The notes: generated by a model not told the origin, from the letters alone. A DNA stretch of 64,000 bases from Thermococcus sp. 21S7 (GCF_012027615.1 NZ_SNUT01000003.1:62001-126000); one strand, 5' to 3'; positions 28,621-52,255 are shown, counted from the first letter of the stretch. Program-made: numbers and translations.

Positions 28621-28800
28621 AATAGCCGTTCTGGTTAGCCGTAACTTGCGTGAAGTTCGTAAACGTCGTTACGGCTAACCTTCCCCACTCCCTTCTTCAT
28701 CGTGGGGCTTTCGGGGGGAACGGAAACTCCCCACATCTTCAAGGCTCTAAGCGAAATATTCCAAGAGCCAACCACATCTCTATCAGCCTCAAACCCACAA
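28610..28800 (-). ncRNA. Candidate omega RNA (TnpB guide RNA)
   Basis: In studied TnpB systems the guide RNA is the tnpB 3' end plus the right-end hairpin, followed by a guide copied from flanking DNA. Here the tnpB stop (28635-28637) lies inside the right-end hairpin, the same layout. The guide would begin just after AGAACGG, that is, from about 28625 downward into the lipoprotein gene end. Boundaries are approximate and expression is inferred. Confidence 0.5.
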
Positions 28801-29816
28801 TTCAAACACTTCAAAACCCTGTGCCCATTCGGGCTTAACTTACCCCCACATACCGGGCACAGGGAGGAAGTATGAGCAGGATTCACAAAAACAACCCTAA
28901 CACCCTTCAGTTTAGCCTTGTATTCGATGATTGACTGGAGTTTACGAAAACTCCAGCGATGAAGCCTGCCGTTCATCTCGGCGGAATATCTAATTGAGTC
29001 CCTGATTTCCGTCAAATCCTCAAGAGCAAGACCACCGTATTTCTCTGCCAGCTCAACGATTTTGTTCGCCAATTTGTGGTAAAGGTCGTTAAGCCTGTTC
29101 CTCTCCCTCTGTCCGTATTTTTCGAGGAGTTCTCTCCTCCTCTTTCCAGCCCTGATTTTCCGCTGTATTTTCCGTCTCTTCACGAAGTATCCAGTCCTAA
29201 TCTCCCGCTCGTGGGTGGTGATTTGAACGAATTCACCGTTTGGCAAGGCAAGGGTTACGTTGTTCTCGTTCAAATCAACTCCAACAAAAGCATCAGGCTC
29301 TTTAACCTCAACTTCCTTCGAGAAGACGACGTTTAGGAAGACTCCCTTCGGCGTTCTAACCAACCACGCTTGGCCAATCTTCCAATCCTTGAACTTCTCG
29401 TGATACTTGGCGGGATAAAACTCCAAACTAAACCTGCCTTGGGAAGTGGAGAGTTTTACAGTTCTGTTCTCTAAATCAAGTTTGAATAGATGGTCGTCAA
29501 GCATAATGACTTCCTTCTTAAAAACTGGTCTCCCCTTGGCCTTATCCTTCTTCTTCCGCTTCCTAAAGCTTTTGAAGATTGATATGGCCATCTGACAGGC
29601 CGTGTAAATGTAATGGCTCGGAAGTTCTGAATACTCCCTGCGTAAGCCCTTGTAGGTCTCCTTCTTCAGCCGGTAAAAGCTGGTAACATTGTTCTCAAAA
29701 GCGTGTGTGATGAGAAAGTTCACGATTTCACGATAAGTAGAGAAAAGGTCGTCTAATCCTTCGGGTGTTTCTTTCAGCTTGAATTTGGCGGTGAGTTTGA
29801 TGGTTTCACTCGGCAT
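28635..29816 (-). CDS. tnpB: TnpB RNA-guided nuclease (OrfB transposase-accessory)
   Basis: A 393-residue intact TnpB. The split RuvC site is complete: D in VGVDLNENNV (about 178), E in LALEDLTEIR (about 270), D in EADRDVVGSWN (about 355). The zinc finger CPVCGG...CLNCGF is present, and the N-terminal wedge/REC part begins MPSETIKLTAKFKL. TnpB cuts DNA next to a TAM using omega RNA and so preserves the element. ATG 29816 is inside the end of the RHH gene (11-bp overlap), implying coupled translation. The frame could extend to 29873 but that only duplicates the RHH region. Confidence 0.9.
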   Translation of the reverse strand: MPSETIKLTAKFKLKETPEGLDDLFSTYREIVNFLITHAFENNVTSFYRLKKETYKGLRREYSELPSHYIYTACQMAISIFKSFRKRKKKDKAKGRPVFKKEVIMLDDHLFKLDLENRTVKLSTSQGRFSLEFYPAKYHEKFKDWKIGQAWLVRTPKGVFLNVVFSKEVEVKEPDAFVGVDLNENNVTLALPNGEFVQITTHEREIRTGYFVKRRKIQRKIRAGKRRRELLEKYGQRERNRLNDLYHKLANKIVELAEKYGGLALEDLTEIRDSIRYSAEMNGRLHRWSFRKLQSIIEYKAKLKGVRVVFVNPAHTSSLCPVCGGKLSPNGHRVLKCLNCGFEADRDVVGSWNISLRALKMWGVSVPPESPTMKKGVGKVSRNDVYELHASYG

Positions 29817-29970
29817 TTTCCAGCTCCTTTTTTGTTTTTTTAATCCAATCCTTGATTGCTTCTTCAATTGCAACGCTTAAAACTCCTCTTTTGTCTCCAT
29901 AACGTTTCTTGGCGAGTTTTTTGAACTCTTCGAGGGTTTCCTCGCTGATGACGAAAGTTGCTTTAGACAT
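29806..29970 (-). CDS. Small ribbon-helix-helix protein of the TnpB element
   Basis: A 54-residue ORF: MSKATFVISEETLEEFKK, then AKKRYGDKRGVLSVAIEEAIKDW and a lysine-rich end. The beta strand followed by two helices is the ribbon-helix-helix pattern (as in CopG/MetJ-like repressors), with TFVISEE as the DNA-contact strand. It lies at the 5' end of the element, overlaps tnpB by 11 bp and follows GGTGGTTAGT. It probably binds the element's left end and represses tnpB, or helps recognise the ends; this is inference. Confidence 0.7.
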   Translation of the reverse strand: MSKATFVISEETLEEFKKLAKKRYGDKRGVLSVAIEEAIKDWIKKTKKELENAE

Positions 29971-32778: not shown

Positions 32779-33291
32779 ATGCCATACTTTGAAATGAAGC
32801 GGGCAGTAACGGTAAAACTCCAACCCTCAAAGGAGCAGGAGAAAATCCTTTTTGAGTTAGCCCACGCTACGGCAGTAATCTGGAACAGGCTCAACTACGA
32901 GAGGCTTAAACAGTTCAAGGAATTCGGTAAAATAGACTTCTCAACAACTGAAAAAGAGGCATATCACGAGTTCAAAAACTGGATTGGTAGTTCAACAGTC
33001 CAGCAGTTGGCCAGAAAGAATGCTGAAAGCTGGAGGAGTTTCTTCTCCCTCAACAAAAAGAAAAAGGGGGGAGAACTCCCCGCATGGTTCAAACCCAAAC
33101 CACCTAAATTCATCAGGGAAAAGAACGGCAGAAAACTCTTCGTAATCCCCCTCAGGAACGACCAGTATCGGATTAAGGGCTCTGGTGAGAACCCCCCAAA
33201 CTTCTCCGCCATTGGGTTAGGGGGTTCCTCGTTGGAACCCTCACCCTTCAGGGCGGGAAGGAGGTCAGCCAAAGGCATAATCTTAGTTTAA
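32779..33291 (+). pseudogene. tnpB: tnpB fragment of a second element family
   Basis: The first about 135 codons are a normal TnpB N-terminus (KRAVTVKLQPSKEQEKILFELAHATAVIWNRLNYER, then STVQQLARKNAESWRSFFSL). The middle, with the RuvC and zinc-finger parts, is absent; the frame jumps to a terminal sequence encoding SLEPSPFRAGRRS. The nucleotide right end AACCCTCACCCTTCAGGGCGGG...GAGGTCAG (33236-33268) also occurs at 51258-51290. This is an internally deleted, inactive copy, distinct in sequence from the TnpB at 28635-29816. Start ATG 32779. Confidence 0.8.
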
Positions 33292-47251: not shown

Positions 47252-47452
47252 TCAGACTTCCTCAAGCTTTTTCTTGACTTCCTCGGTGTGTCTCTTGGTC
47301 TCCTCCAGTGTGTTCCTCAGCTGGGCGAGCTCAAGCTTGAGCTCCCCAAGGGTTTTGTTCATCTGGTAAAAGGCGAAGACCATTATTGCTATCAGGATGA
47401 GCCCGAGGGTTATGCTTATCCACCCGCTTGGGGCCGATGCGTAGGGCATCAT
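47252..47452 (-). CDS. Small membrane-anchored coiled-coil protein (copy 1)
   Basis: A 66-residue protein: short N-terminus, one helix (ISITLGLILIAIMVFAFYQM), then a charged coiled coil (NKTLGELKLELAQLRNTLEETKRHTEEVKKKLEEV). It resembles the product at 50712-50933 in both helix and coil, so the two are paralogues. It lies between an ArsR-type regulator (1-bp overlap) and the HypE-like gene. Function unknown; a scaffold or small regulator at the membrane is plausible. Confidence 0.7.
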   Translation of the reverse strand: MMPYASAPSGWISITLGLILIAIMVFAFYQMNKTLGELKLELAQLRNTLEETKRHTEEVKKKLEEV

Positions 47453-47748
47453 CACACCTCCTTAAGGTTCTTTATAGTCTCATTATCAACGACGAACTTA
47501 AAGGGCTTTGCCCGGTAGTACTTCTTCGCCCTGGGGTCGTTGGGCTCCAGGCGGAGCTCGCTCTCGACGAGGTTGGCCTTTTCGAGCTTTTTGAGGTGGA
47601 GGTAGAGCAGCTGGCGGGAAATGCCAAGGGCCTTGGCCAGCTCGTAGACGTACCATTCCTTTTCGCAGAGCATTTTGAGTATCCTTACTCTCACGGGGGA
47701 ACTCAGGGCCTCTGCAATCACTGTTATCTCCTGTATGCTCTCGACCAT
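47452..47748 (-). CDS. ArsR-type winged-helix transcription regulator
   Basis: A 98-residue DNA-binding protein. The winged helix is clear: ALSSPVRVRILKMLCEKEWYVYELAKALGISRQLLYLHLKKLEKANLVESEL (about 14-66), followed by PRAKKYYRAKPFKFVV. No cysteine cluster of metal sensors is visible (a single Cys), so the signal is unknown. It is the first gene of a three-gene unit and a candidate regulator for the shared operator at 49170-49195 and 52125-52150, by proximity only. Confidence 0.85.
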   Translation of the reverse strand: MVESIQEITVIAEALSSPVRVRILKMLCEKEWYVYELAKALGISRQLLYLHLKKLEKANLVESELRLEPNDPRAKKYYRAKPFKFVVDNETIKNLKEV

Positions 47749-47824: not shown

Positions 47825-48007
47825 TCAGCGCTTCAGGAGGGCGTGAATCACTGCACCAAGGAGCAGGAAGGGCAACAGCAGGAAGGCGATGCGGGCGAAG
47901 AGCAGGAGGAGGGCGAACATTCCAAAGCCCCACCACATCCACCCGAAGCCCCTTCTTCCAAAGGCAGGCCCCATCATCGGACCTCCGAATCCCCTCGGCA
48001 TCTTCAT
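47825..48007 (-). CDS. Small Gly/Met-rich membrane protein
   Basis: A 60-residue protein: MKMPRGFGGPMMGPAFGRRGFGWMWW, then a hydrophobic stretch FGMFALLLLFARIAFLLLPFLLLGAVIHALL that may cross the membrane once or twice. ATG 48007 overlaps the preceding stop (ATGA) and follows GGAGG. It is probably co-translated with the gene at 48004-48306. No function known. Confidence 0.6.
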   Translation of the reverse strand: MKMPRGFGGPMMGPAFGRRGFGWMWWGFGMFALLLLFARIAFLLLPFLLLGAVIHALLKR

Positions 48008-48306
48008 CCCTCCAGGTAGAGCCAACCAACAACGCTTTCGCCGCAGTCCAGCGTCACCTTTATCCCAAACGGGGTCTGGTAGGCGCTCCCTATGGAGAGC
48101 TTCTCCAGGGGGCAGCCGCCAACGACCTTTCCGATGTAGTTCCCGTACTCATCAACGAGCTTGAAAACAGTCCCGCGCGACGTGCCGTACCTCTCAACTG
48201 TCACGCGCCCAAGAAGTTTCAGCGCGTCGTCCATAACCTCATCAACATCGATTTCCTCGACAGGAAACTCCCCAAACTCGACGAAGTGCCAGGCTTGAGC
48301 TTCCAT
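48004..48306 (-). CDS. Small soluble protein of unknown function
   Basis: A 100-residue protein starting MEAQAWHFVEFGEFPVEEIDVDEVM, with a conserved-looking beta part (TSRGTVFKLVDEYGNYIGKVVGGCPLEKLSIGSAYQTPFGIKVTLDCGESVVGWLYLEG) and two cysteines. I recognise no family. ATG 48306 follows GGGGTGATT; the longer frame to 48393 is not needed. It overlaps the following membrane gene by 4 bp. Confidence 0.6.
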   Translation of the reverse strand: MEAQAWHFVEFGEFPVEEIDVDEVMDDALKLLGRVTVERYGTSRGTVFKLVDEYGNYIGKVVGGCPLEKLSIGSAYQTPFGIKVTLDCGESVVGWLYLEG

Positions 48307-48344: not shown

Positions 48345-49154
48345 TCAGATAGGCATCCCAATCCTCTGGGCAAGCCCGTTCATCCACGCCCAAGCGTGCC
48401 TGAATGTGTTGGTTATGCCCGCCATGATGCCGCCTTCCTGCATTCCGCCGGCCTGTCCGCGGGCGGCTGCCATACCGCGACCGCCGTGCCCGTGGCTGGC
48501 TGCGGTGCCGATAACGCTCTGGTAGTAGTCATCACCTACGACCTGGGGCTCGTAGGTTACGCCGTAGGCCTCAAGCTGGCTCGTAAAGGCCCTGAGGTGG
48601 TTCTCACTGCCGGCCATGAGGTTCTCGTAAACCTGTCTGATGTCATCGTTGTCGGTCTGAGCTATCCTCTCCTGGAGGTCAACGATGTCCGTCTCCTCTA
48701 TCAGCGCGCCGACCTTGAGGGCATCGACGACGCTTCCGCTTCCCATCTCAATCAGCTGGTCGTAGAGGGCCTGCAGGTCGGGGTTGGTGAAGACCCCTAT
48801 CTCATCGCTGGCCGGGTCGGTGAGGTTGTACTTCTCTATCAAGGCGAGCACTGTGTCGGTGTGCGTCTGCTCGCTCTGGGCTATGTTGTAGAATATCTGA
48901 AGGCCGTACATCTCGTAGAACGTTAGGTAGACGTCCCGTGCGAGCTTCTCCTCCTCGCGCATGTAGAGCAGTCCATCTATCTCCTCCTGGGTCAGGTCCG
49001 AGTAGTAAGTATCAAGGGTGCTGTTCGCCATCGGGGCGGTCGTCTGGGATGCGTATGGGTTCGGCCCGGGGGTTCCCATGTACGCCGAAACCGCTCCCAG
49101 AGACATTCCAATCAACAGGGCCATCAGCCCAATTCCAAACCACATCTTTCTCAT
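48345..49154 (-). CDS. Exported DUF2202 ferritin-like protein
   Basis: A 269-residue protein with signal peptide MRKMWFGIGLMALLIGMSLGAVSA. The core is the DUF2202 four-helix bundle: TQEEIDGLLYMREEEKLARDVYLTFYE, then IAQSEQTHTDTVLALIEKY and later MAGSENHLRAF; E, E and ExxH positions suggest a di-metal site as in ferritin-like proteins. A Gly/His-rich segment (HGHGGRGMAAARGQ) follows. Function unknown; metal storage or oxidant handling outside the membrane is likely. ATG 49154 follows GGAGG. TATA at 49204-49212 and the 49170-49195 palindrome precede it. Confidence 0.82.
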   Translation of the reverse strand: MRKMWFGIGLMALLIGMSLGAVSAYMGTPGPNPYASQTTAPMANSTLDTYYSDLTQEEIDGLLYMREEEKLARDVYLTFYEMYGLQIFYNIAQSEQTHTDTVLALIEKYNLTDPASDEIGVFTNPDLQALYDQLIEMGSGSVVDALKVGALIEETDIVDLQERIAQTDNDDIRQVYENLMAGSENHLRAFTSQLEAYGVTYEPQVVGDDYYQSVIGTAASHGHGGRGMAAARGQAGGMQEGGIMAGITNTFRHAWAWMNGLAQRIGMPI

Positions 49155-49169
49155 GGTTTCAACCTCCTG

Positions 49170-49195
49170 CATGTGTAAGTTCAATATTACATATG
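49170..49195. promoter_or_regulatory. 26-bp operator of the DUF2202 gene
   Basis: CATGTGTAA (49170-49178), 8 bp, TTACATATG (49187-49195). The arms match at 8 of 9 positions. It begins 8 bp downstream of the TATA box (CTTTATAAAG, reverse strand) and so covers the expected start of transcription, a repressor-like position. The same site occurs before the gene at 51347-52048. Confidence 0.7.
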
Positions 49196-49283
49196 TGCAA
49201 GACTTTATAAAGTTTTCGGTTCCAAGAAAAGGGTATGAATGCAAGGGGTGGGAAGAACGGGAACGGAGGAAAATAGAGAAGGT

Positions 49284-50477
49284 TCACGGCCCGGAGTGGC
49301 CGCCGTGCCCGGGAGGGTTCATTCTCTCCTTGATATGAAGCCTTCCGTGAAGGTACTCATTCATCAAGCGCTCCCTGATCTGTTCCATCAAGGTCTGGAT
49401 GGCGTCCTGGTCTCCATCCCTGATGGCCGCCTTGAGCCTCTCAAGCATGGCCCGGAGTTCGGTCGTGTTAAGCCCTGCCCTCTCCATCACCCAGAGCTGC
49501 CTCTCGACGCGGTGGACGTACATCTCCGCCCTCATCAGGGTGTTCTTTTTCATCTCGGCGCTCCACTCCTCAGACGCGATCCGAATCACAAACTCCGCGT
49601 GAGCTTTTGCTGCCATCGCCTGACCGTAGGCCCTTCCGTAGTCTCCCCTGTTGTAGGCATCCTCGGCGTTCTCCAGCTCCATCTCGGACATCATTAAAAA
49701 TCTGCTCACTACGGTGAATCTTCCACCGACGAGGTCTCCCGTGCTTGGAGTGATATTGGATGCCATCTCCTCGGCCAGACTAAGCTTTTTCTCCGCAGTC
49801 TTTATCGCTTCAAGCGCGGTTTCGGCGGTGATGTTGACCTCCGTTGAGGTACAGTTGCACTCCCGGAGCTGTTCCCTGATACGAAGCATCGTCCCATTCA
49901 TGAGTGGCGTTTCCACAAGGGTCAGGTTGGCGCCCCTCACCTGGAGCTTCAGCATGAGCCGGCTGACGTTGGAGGTGTCGTTTACGAAGGCTATCATGGC
50001 CTTTCTGCGAACGGCTATCCTGAGCGCGGCCCTTATTGCGGCCCTGTCGTTGCCAGGAACCATTATGACGCTGTTGTTGAATTTGAGTTTGAGTTTGACT
50101 TTGGCCTGTTCCATGACCATGAGGTTGGTCTCGTACCTGTTCTGGCCGCCCCAGCGTTCGACCTCGATTCCCAGATCTTGGAGGTCATCAGCGTACTGCT
50201 CGACCACCGCGTCAGGGCCGCCGATTATTATCACCTCGTCCGGGGCGTAGCTCATAACCTCGGCAGTAACATTCGAATTATAAACGCCCCATGGGGTGGT
50301 CACAACAATGGCCCCCGTCACGTTCGCCAGGTACTCGGCAAGGGCACAGTCTGCCTCATTGTCGCTGACCAGGACCACGGTTACCTGAGTACCATCTGCA
50401 GCTACCCTCTCAAAGGACAGGGTGGTCGTCAGGAGCATAAAACCAAAGAGCAATGCAATGCCTTTTTTCCACACCAT
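49284..50477 (-). CDS. Exported protein with CWB2-like domain
   Basis: A 397-residue exported protein. Signal peptide MVWKKGIALLFGFMLLTTTLSFERVAA. Residues about 30-115 resemble a cell-wall-binding repeat 2 (PF04122-type) unit: VVTTPWGVYNSNVTAEVMSYAPDEVIIIGGPDAVVEQY...VERWGGQNRYETN. The rest is mostly helical, with an Ala/Glu-rich coiled coil (about 215-360), and ends in a His/Gly-rich GHGGHSGP tail. It could bind the S-layer or act as a protease inhibitor-like surface protein. ATG 50477 follows GGGGTGAAG. Confidence 0.75.
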   Translation of the reverse strand: MVWKKGIALLFGFMLLTTTLSFERVAADGTQVTVVLVSDNEADCALAEYLANVTGAIVVTTPWGVYNSNVTAEVMSYAPDEVIIIGGPDAVVEQYADDLQDLGIEVERWGGQNRYETNLMVMEQAKVKLKLKFNNSVIMVPGNDRAAIRAALRIAVRRKAMIAFVNDTSNVSRLMLKLQVRGANLTLVETPLMNGTMLRIREQLRECNCTSTEVNITAETALEAIKTAEKKLSLAEEMASNITPSTGDLVGGRFTVVSRFLMMSEMELENAEDAYNRGDYGRAYGQAMAAKAHAEFVIRIASEEWSAEMKKNTLMRAEMYVHRVERQLWVMERAGLNTTELRAMLERLKAAIRDGDQDAIQTLMEQIRERLMNEYLHGRLHIKERMNPPGHGGHSGP

Positions 50478-50595
50478 GGCACTTCACCCCGACATTCTCT
50501 ATGAGAAAAGCAATATTTAAGCTTTTTTCACGAAATCGTCTGCTTAAATTCATGTTTGTTTATTGAAACGGCATCTTCTGCCTTTTTTCCACTTT

Positions 50596-50635
50596 TATCG
50601 TTAAACAACGTTACCCAACGTTTATCTGCGTTTAA
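50596..50635. repeat. Four 10-bp phased CGTT repeats
   Basis: Four consecutive 10-mers place CGTT at 50599, 50609, 50619 and 50629: TATCGTTAAA, CAACGTTACC, CAACGTTTAT, CTGCGTTTAA. The exact 10-bp period puts each copy on one face of the helix. The array lies about 85 bp upstream of the TATA-like region (about 50506-50516) of the CWB2 gene. Confidence 0.6.
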
Positions 50636-50711
50636 GCTACCAGCTAAGAAAAGATTGGAAAAAACGGGGGCCTGTCCTTAGGATGCTGTGCCAGGAGGGG
50701 ATGTATCCCCT

Positions 50712-50933
50712 TTAAACCTCTTCTAGAATCTTCTCCACCTCGCCCGTCTCCTCCATGAGTTCAACCGCCGAGGCGTTTATCCCCTGCATCTCCGTGAGTA
50801 TCCCGTTTAGGGTTTTGCTGAGCCGGTACATGGAAATGGCCACCACTGCCAGGAGAACGACCCACAGTGCGATGCTTACATTTTTCTCCCGAAAGCCTCG
50901 CTCTTTAGAGCGGGGATGTAATAAACCACCCAA
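50712..50933 (-). CDS. Small membrane coiled-coil protein (copy 2), 5' end altered
   Basis: A 73-residue frame. From about residue 19 it parallels the 47252-47452 product: helix SIALWVVLLAVVAISMYRL, then SKTLNGILTEMQ and an acidic coil ending EVEKILEEV. The first 18 residues come from element debris (AGCCTCGCTCTTTAGAGCGGGGATG-type sequence is split over this point) and the only in-frame start is TTG 50933 without a good RBS. The original start was probably lost to an insertion, so the gene may be silent. Confidence 0.5.
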   Translation of the reverse strand: MGGLLHPRSKERGFREKNVSIALWVVLLAVVAISMYRLSKTLNGILTEMQGINASAVELMEETGEVEKILEEV

Positions 50934-51290
50934 CGGCCATTAAACCAGCGAAACCCTTAAATGTCCTCCCGTCTAATAAGGGCCTCGGAGAGGCCACTGT
51001 AAAACAATCCCATAAGATAAGGGGTTTCACGTTACCCTCCGGCATTGGAGGGTTGACGCTGTTAAGCGTCCTTTCAAAAACCGCCTTTGAGTGGTTAGAA
51101 AATCTAAAGGTGGCCTCTAAGACAATAACCCCAATCCGCTCTGCGGTAGGGGTAACGGGCCGGAGACCCGGCCTGCGGGCTGAACCGAAACCGGCAACGG
51201 GAGTAAGTAATGGGCCCGCAAACCGAACCGCCCAATGGCGAGGGGTTAACTCGCCGGAACCCTCACCCTTCACGGCGGGGAAGAGGTCAG
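50894..51290 (+). mobile_element. Relic of the second TnpB-type element family
   Basis: This gene-free 400-bp stretch shows a right end at 51258-51290 (AACCCTCACCCTTCACGG...GAGGTCAG), nearly the same as that at 33236-33268, and a frame from about 51053 ending in SPEPSPFTAGKRSD, parallel to SLEPSPFRAGRRS there. A second end-like hairpin lies at 50894-50918 (CTCGCTCTTTAGAGCGGGG). Several strong hairpins between, for example CCCTCC/GGAGGG near 51033-51051, could be guide-RNA scaffold. No transposase or nuclease domain survives. Confidence 0.6.
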
Positions 51291-51346
51291 ATACTCAACG
51301 TAGCCTGGAGCTTCCGCGTAGATATATTGGGGGAAGTATGGGCCCA

Positions 51347-52048
51347 TCAGCCTTCGCCCCCATCCGATGTCTCCGACGTTGTGTTGGTCGCAGCCTCTTT
51401 TGCTCCGAGGAGCCTTTCAATTGCTGCCGCTAGTTCTTCCTTAAACACTTCCCTGTCCAGGCCGTTGCTGGCCTCTATGGCTTCGAGGAGATCGCCTGGC
51501 TCTGCATTGATGCCGTAATCTTCCTTCAACACCCTCACCAAGTCTTCTGCGGAGACACCGTAGATTTCCGCCACCTGCTGGAGTGTGTACGTCTTCATCA
51601 TTGAGCCCGTTATCTCCACGTAGGTGTAGGTAGTGTTGGTGTCGGCGGCTACGTAAACCTCATAATCGGTGCTCCCGCTTGAGTCCTCCGTAAAGTACGA
51701 CTCGTAAGCCTGGAATCCTCCGGCGATCAGTCCTGCGGCAATCAGAAACGCCACCGCGGGCTTCCATCTGCCCTGTTTGAAGCCCACTTTAAGCATGGTT
51801 AGCATGCTTCTGAAGCCTATTATCAGGTGCACCGCTATGAGGCCGATCATGGCAAAGCCCATGTACGTGTGTACGTTCGTCCAGGTGTCCTTATCCAGGC
51901 CAAGGAACGTCCATCCTATCGTGTCGGCTATTCTCCCTGAGGGGGCGAGGTAGAGGGCTATTCCCGAGACGGCGAGTATTGTGAACACTGCCGTAAGAAC
52001 CAGGTCAACTACTCCTCTAAACCATGCCGGAGCCGTCCATCTTGCCAT
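51347..52048 (-). CDS. Cytochrome b-like (DUF4405) membrane protein
   Basis: A 233-residue protein. Helices at about 12-35 (VVDLVLTAVFTILAVSGIALYLA), 62-82 and 97-115. Histidines in NVHTYMGFAMIGLIAVHLIIGF are spaced as heme ligands of the cytochrome b561/DUF4405 type. An external domain follows (TDYEVYVAADTNTTYTYVEITGSMMKTYTLQQVAEIYGVSAEDLVRVLKEDYGI), ending in a Ser/Thr tail. Probable membrane electron-transfer protein. ATG 52048 follows GGAGGTGCCGGTG. Its promoter holds the 52125-52150 operator shared with the DUF2202 gene. Confidence 0.75.
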   Translation of the reverse strand: MARWTAPAWFRGVVDLVLTAVFTILAVSGIALYLAPSGRIADTIGWTFLGLDKDTWTNVHTYMGFAMIGLIAVHLIIGFRSMLTMLKVGFKQGRWKPAVAFLIAAGLIAGGFQAYESYFTEDSSGSTDYEVYVAADTNTTYTYVEITGSMMKTYTLQQVAEIYGVSAEDLVRVLKEDYGINAEPGDLLEAIEASNGLDREVFKEELAAAIERLLGAKEAATNTTSETSDGGEG

Positions 52049-52124
52049 CACCGGCACCTCCCGCGACATTTTATCGCTTGGAGCCTTCCAGAGATTGCGT
52101 CAAACCAAATCATACAATCACCCA

Positions 52125-52150
52125 CATATGTATGCTCTAACTTACATATG
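52125..52150. promoter_or_regulatory. 26-bp operator of the cytochrome b-like gene
   Basis: CATATGTAT (52125-52133), 8 bp, TTACATATG (52142-52150), with the same 9-8-9 architecture as 49170-49195 and an identical right arm. The TATA-like TTTTTAAAC (reverse strand, about 52159-52167) lies 8-9 bp before it, the same geometry as at the DUF2202 gene. Confidence 0.7.
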
Positions 52151-52255
52151 CTAGTCCAGTTTAAAAAGGTTTCGGATTGAACATACTCCAAAACAGAATT
52201 GAGAATGCAACAAGAAGGGCTAGAAAAACGCAAAAGAGGGTGCGGGGGGGATGTC

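Follow-up and report, generated by a model that had tools for sequence, protein, structure and literature searches.

Repressors of the ArsR/SmtB family bind 12-2-12 inverted repeats (PMC8790569). The system described here resembles such family members as SmtB and AzuR in combining a winged-helix protein of the HTH_5 type with an inverted repeat and a small local regulon, and both the length of the repeat, 26 bp, and its location near the expected start point fit the 12-2-12 rule. Unlike these repressors, the ArsR-type protein of Thermococcus sp. 21S7 lacks conserved alpha-3/alpha-5 metal ligands, is associated with an archaeal promoter geometry and with exported iron/heme proteins as putative targets, and is encoded next to a gene for a membrane coiled-coil protein. 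The Phr-like and PH1932 ArsR-type proteins of Pyrococcus (2p4w, 1uly) show a distant winged-helix similarity to it but are about 200 aa long, twice its length, and its score against the NCBI Phr family, 34.7 bits, falls far below the cut-off of 320 bits.

The gene neighborhood itself has been noticed before. In 2015, Makarova and colleagues described a thermococcal neighborhood of arCOG04002, arCOG03957 and arCOG01679, for which iron-dependent electron transfer was suggested (PMC5898192). It comprises the same kinds of genes as the locus analyzed here, namely those for DUF4405, ferritin-like, ArsR, secreted and coiled-coil proteins; the available part of that paper contains no mention of an operator, a regulon, a regulator assignment or an ArsR-coiled-coil pair beyond Thermococci. 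Our search of the open-access literature yielded no account of the operator, the regulon or the regulator assignment and nothing on DUF2202 or MJ0754, and arCOG01679 surfaced in PMC5898192 only. We propose that a 26-bp palindrome very probably serves as the control site of a compact regulon under the 98-aa ArsR-type protein, a predicted repressor that might be released by iron or a redox change.

Palindromic sites and their promoters

Two near-perfect palindromes, CATGTGTAAGTTCAATATTACATATG as operator 1 and CATATGTATGCTCTAACTTACATATG as operator 2, were found exactly where the original prediction had placed them in the window, that is, the 64,000-nucleotide stretch of DNA that was analyzed; each deviates from a perfect 9-N8-9 palindrome by one mismatch. 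The relevant features, all on the minus strand, are the following.

49205..49220, minus: DUF2202 promoter elements, BRE plus TATA box (ACCGAAAA-C-TTTATAA); 9-bp gap to operator 1
49170..49195, minus: operator 1, 26-bp palindrome of the DUF2202 promoter, 1 mismatch
48345..49154, minus: ferritin-like DUF2202 protein of 269 aa, carrying a signal peptide; PF09968, 1.4e-59; model matches MJ0754 (3q4r/3q4n)
48004..48306, minus: p100, 100 aa, akin to the C-terminal domain of a 153-aa exported regulon protein; conserved gene order
47825..48025, minus: p66, small membrane protein of the DUF2202 cluster; conserved gene order
47452..47748, minus: 98-aa winged-helix protein of the ArsR type and probable regulator; PF01022, 1.1e-13; co-occurrence with the operator and pairing in outgroups
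47252..47455, minus: p67, one TM helix and a coiled coil, candidate partner; overlaps the ArsR stop
52161..52175, minus: DUF4405 promoter elements, BRE plus TATA box (CCGAAACC-TTTTTAA); 10-bp gap to operator 2
52125..52150, minus: operator 2, 26-bp palindrome of the DUF4405 promoter, 1 mismatch
52048..52113, minus: 21-codon mini-ORF MIWFDAISGRLQAIKCRGRCR, starting 11 bp past operator 2; its stop overlaps the DUF4405 ATG
51347..52048, minus: DUF4405 cytochrome-b-like membrane protein, 233 aa (revised start); PF14358, 5.4e-16; SD and ATG
50712..50933, minus: p73, p67-like small membrane protein with a coiled coil; a mobile element displaces the 5' part

The pattern CATATGTAA-N8-TTACATATG (26 bp, up to 3 mismatches) was searched along with its reversed version as a control. 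Operators 1 and 2 are the sole matches in the window, where dinucleotide shuffles give 0.01. The genome-wide search that had been suggested as a check detected five sites in the 2.37-Mb genome (with 0, 1, 1, 2 and 2 mismatches; none with 3), every one of them in a promoter position rather than among coding sequences, and the reversed pattern produced no match in the whole genome at the same threshold. The outcome that would have counted against the prediction, numerous copies at coding positions, did not arise. By chance, about 0.02 sites per genome would be expected at up to 2 mismatches, given the G+C content of the window (55 %). In a survey of 61 genomes of the genus, 97 sites were counted at a limit of 2 mismatches, spread over 40 genomes, and again no match to the reversed pattern. 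One additional near-site (L053 in G033), located before an unrelated exported protein, was an isolated instance and was not assigned to the regulon.

The arrangement of these promoters is stereotyped: BRE and TATA box, 9–10 bp, the operator over the expected transcription start, usually 15 bp, and the ATG. On the minus strand, site 1 begins 9 bp past TTTATAA, with 15 bp separating its end from the DUF2202 ATG (49154), and site 2 begins 10 bp past TTTTTAA; the palindromes thus do lie downstream of the TATA box, as predicted, at 9 and 10 bp rather than at the 8–9 bp originally given. The distance from operator to ATG is exactly 15 bp in 59 of 101 promoter contexts. Because TATA boxes in Thermococcus are centred about 27 nt upstream of the start (PMC5316973), the expected start falls near the centre of the operator. 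The logo of 55 dereplicated promoters consists of ACCGAAAA and TTTATAAA, 9–10 weakly conserved bases, the operator, a GAGGAGGTTGA-like SD and the ATG; transcription would begin close to a conserved T-T-purine in the middle of the operator.

This geometry bears on two other interpretations of the palindrome. A near-perfect inverted repeat close to the transcript start might fold into a hairpin within the leader of the mRNA or might even be fortuitous, rather than being bound by a protein. We regard this as very improbable because, with the expected start at the operator centre, the RNA would hold only half of the palindrome, because five sites are observed against 0.02 expected per genome, and because the arms are conserved across phyla together with the regulator and not with the target genes (see below). 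A search of Rfam gave no match around the operator sites. The ArsR-type protein could also bind the operator as an activator, or act both ways, given that several archaeal regulators both activate and repress, depending on the position of the site. Activator sites, however, are usually found upstream of BRE/TATA, whereas here the operator lies 9–10 bp past the TATA box, over the expected start, in nearly every stereotyped promoter, and a protein bound over the start point should block the polymerase; activation or dual action is accordingly unlikely, and repression is what we infer from the position of the site.

Genes behind the sites

Of the five sites in the genome, two head window genes: (a) DUF2202, followed by p100 and p66, and (b) DUF4405. 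The other three precede (c) another DUF2202 gene, which encodes a lipoprotein and from which a carotenoid-synthesis-like gene (PF04240) diverges; (d) the gene for the 153-aa exported protein, the C-terminal domain of which resembles p100 (BLASTP 7e-13, 40 % identity); and (e) a gene encoding a protein of 106 aa and following a gcvPB-like gene. The sites before the 106-aa and 153-aa genes each have two mismatches and draw their support from conservation in relatives. The protein of 102–106 aa (L004 1537-1845; G000:C2 near 11354) carries the operator in many Thermococcus genomes. The 106-aa protein yields a moderate, mostly beta model, for which a convincing PDB match was not found. Across the genus, the same few gene families are targeted in nearly all genomes. 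The small regulon under one regulator envisaged in the original prediction is still the best reading, albeit with five promoters in this genome rather than two.

In many relatives, one operator heads a single cluster consisting of a DUF2202 or 153-aa protein gene, p100, p66, DUF4405 and, further on, ArsR and p67, often with p73 or a DUF2202 lipoprotein gene between DUF4405 and ArsR-p67. The pair of sites that was first noticed is explained by a split of this cluster in the window, where either half has an operator to itself. The ArsR and p67 genes are possibly also a downstream part of the unit transcribed from the DUF2202 promoter. A protein with a weak match to cell-wall-binding-2 (CWB2), encoded at 49284-50477, adjoins the regulon, and in several relatives it is likewise kept next to the regulon or to ArsR.

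The p73 gene is interrupted by an element of about 410 bp (window 50877-51286), across which relatives lacking it align directly; the element displaces the p73 start and separates DUF4405 from p73. About 19 further full or partial copies, 69–97 % identical, are present in the genome, and no Rfam match to the element was obtained. Elsewhere in the window, two proteins look, from their sequence, like TnpB-type transposon proteins (28635-29873 and 32779-33291), the second apparently shortened.

The identities of the two window genes were borne out by Pfam. The DUF2202 domain scores 200.9 bits (PF09968, cut-off 22), and a Foldseek search matched the model to MJ0754 at 4e-14. MJ0754 (PDB 3q4n, 3q4r), which is also a DUF2202 domain and 55–56 % identical over about 170 residues, was crystallized with zinc in one of the PDB entries; the window protein differs in having a signal peptide and a Gly/Met-rich tail. 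Residues E67-E69, E95, H98, E153, E154 and H186 are invariant among 20 sequences, and the model is helical, with weak matches to ferritin-like folds at E values of about 0.01 and worse. At L067 and L074 (G021 and G044), two DUF2202 domains are fused in one frame of 468–489 aa.

The DUF4405 protein scores 59.3 bits (PF14358, cut-off 26.7), and candidate heme-binding histidines are located in VHTYMGF and VHLIIGF. The DUF4405 domain is shared with the FezC cytochromes, and purified bacterial members bind heme b; in bacteria, DUF4405/FezC proteins are tied to flavinylation and ferrosomes, whereas the partner here is DUF2202 (PMC11334425). The anticipated role of both products in handling metal or electrons is in keeping with heme binding of bacterial DUF4405 proteins and with the match of DUF2202 to MJ0754, the resemblance to ferritin-like folds being weak.

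The start of DUF4405 was revised to the likely ATG at 52048, which follows GGGAGGTG. Upstream of it, the mini-ORF has its own SD; such mini-ORFs of 21–36 codons in related promoters end with IKC(K/R)GRCR in seven of eight cases and with TKCRGRCR in one. This ending is partly fixed by the SD of DUF4405, which does not apply to the first cysteine.

The ArsR-type protein as candidate regulator

The gene for the ArsR-type protein lies inside the DUF2202 cluster, 1.4 kb from site 1. The protein contains an HTH_5 winged-helix domain (PF01022, 51.3 bits versus a cut-off of 22) but remains below the cut-off of the NCBI family HTH_metalloreg (NF033788; 48.7 versus 55 bits). Assignment to the PadR family was rejected, the domain score of 24.4 bits being below the Pfam cut-off of 27. 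PadR operators have the form ATGT-8N-ACAT, unlike the ATGT-12N-ACAT spacing found here. No conserved cysteine or histidine of a metal site (alpha-3 CxC or alpha-5) is present in the ArsR alignment, in which the sole invariant residue of these two kinds is H51, in the recognition helix. A cysteine redox switch through C28 was considered and dropped, this residue being replaced in relatives. With neither a conserved cysteine nor a usual metal site, a classical metal switch is unlikely.

The presence of the operator and that of an ArsR ortholog coincide closely. Among 94 Thermococcales genomes, 59 have both, 30 have neither, 2 have ArsR only and 3 have the site only (Fisher's exact test, 8e-19, with counts that are not independent of ancestry); the corresponding numbers are 37, 20, 1 and 3 within the genus, and 22, 10, 1 and 0 in the remaining five Thermococcales genera. 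The two genomes with ArsR only are drafts, 85 % and 77 % complete, and the three with the site only (G035, G036 and G045) are accounted for by assembly gaps because the site-bearing cluster runs into a contig end.

Because ArsR shares a cluster with the putative targets in most genomes, linkage alone could produce such co-occurrence: the operator and the regulon would be real, with another regulator binding and ArsR being a passenger of the DUF2202/DUF4405 cluster. The ArsR-p67 loci of five relatives, where no operator was found, could be taken in the same sense; they also indicate that autoregulation is not general. In the window, a TATA-like stretch, cgaaagcttttTATTT, is located between p66 and ArsR, so that ArsR may have its own operator-free promoter. 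However, two genomes (G003 and G019) retain ArsR and the site without DUF2202, and in another (G001) ArsR is kept although it is encoded about 270 kb from the site-bearing operon, from where it would act in trans.

Loci around ArsR homologs in GTDB genomes were scanned for the operator, and the results extend the pairing beyond Thermococcales. Archaeoglobus-type loci encode an ArsR with 56–67 % identity and carry sites with 0, 0, 1, 2 and 3 mismatches, behind which lie genes for an exported protein, DUF4405, sometimes DUF2202, ArsR and p67. One further archaeon has two perfect sites elsewhere in the genome, before exported proteins of a similar type. In a bacterium of the Thermoactinomycetaceae, the ArsR homolog is 39 % identical across the full alignment and 44 % identical in its best-matching segment. 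A site without mismatches lies 458 bp ahead of it, and behind this site follow a gene for a membrane protein resembling cytochrome oxidase, the ArsR gene and one for a coiled-coil membrane protein. Three Bathyarchaeota each have one 3-mismatch site per genome, 37–82 bp before ArsR. In these bacterial and bathyarchaeal loci, genes for DUF2202 and DUF4405 are absent, and what they have in common is limited to the site, ArsR and a small membrane protein, contrary to what would be expected of a passenger.

In Actinobacteria, a palindrome of the CATGCCAA-N6-TTGGCATG type, with variant arms in the same 26-bp register, is found 65–72 bp before ArsR (L215, L218, L222 and L226); genome-wide searches at 0–1 mismatch detected it once per genome in six of seven cases. 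The recognition helix of the actinobacterial ArsR is altered as well (SRALLQVHLKKLEKA versus SRQLLYLHLKKLEKA), which also argues against a passenger. Judging from these comparisons, the operator appears to track the regulator and not its putative targets, and no other observation speaks as strongly for assigning it to the ArsR-type protein; binding by some other regulator seems quite unlikely.

Proposed mechanism and significance

Under control by the ArsR-type protein, an ArsR dimer would occupy the operator, which spans the expected transcription start shortly past the TATA box, and would keep RNA polymerase from initiating. An iron or redox signal, which is our guess, would lift the repression, whereupon the cell would place on its surface a metal protein of the ferritin-like kind together with a membrane cytochrome of the heme-b type. 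Since ArsR lacks the usual conserved metal ligands, the signal may come via the adjacent membrane protein p67, the coiled coil of which is probably cytosolic. A p67-type gene follows ArsR in nearly all loci, bacteria included, and such a membrane coiled-coil partner gene is unusual beside an ArsR repressor. The signaling role of p67 is likewise a guess. Tentatively, one could go further and imagine ArsR and p67 as an ancient transmembrane signaling pair of archaea and bacteria, in which p67 might sense or transmit the redox or iron state of the envelope and capture or release the repressor that controls exported heme/iron proteins through the 26-bp operator; we consider this possible but doubtful.

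The gene neighborhood and the principle of an ArsR repressor with a 12-2-12-like operator were known before; the operator, the regulon and the regulator assignment seem to be new, to judge from the open-access literature searched. For a neighborhood that had been described but not explained, there is now a regulon hypothesis that can be put to the test: the candidate regulator is named, the operators are defined to the base and the targets are few. Genetic tools exist for this archaeal group, and two little-known families, DUF2202 and DUF4405, are tied to one control. If the proposed pairing is true, the set of regulator, membrane partner and operator, not described as such in the open-access literature searched, would point to an old envelope-sensing system kept from hyperthermophilic archaea to bacteria.
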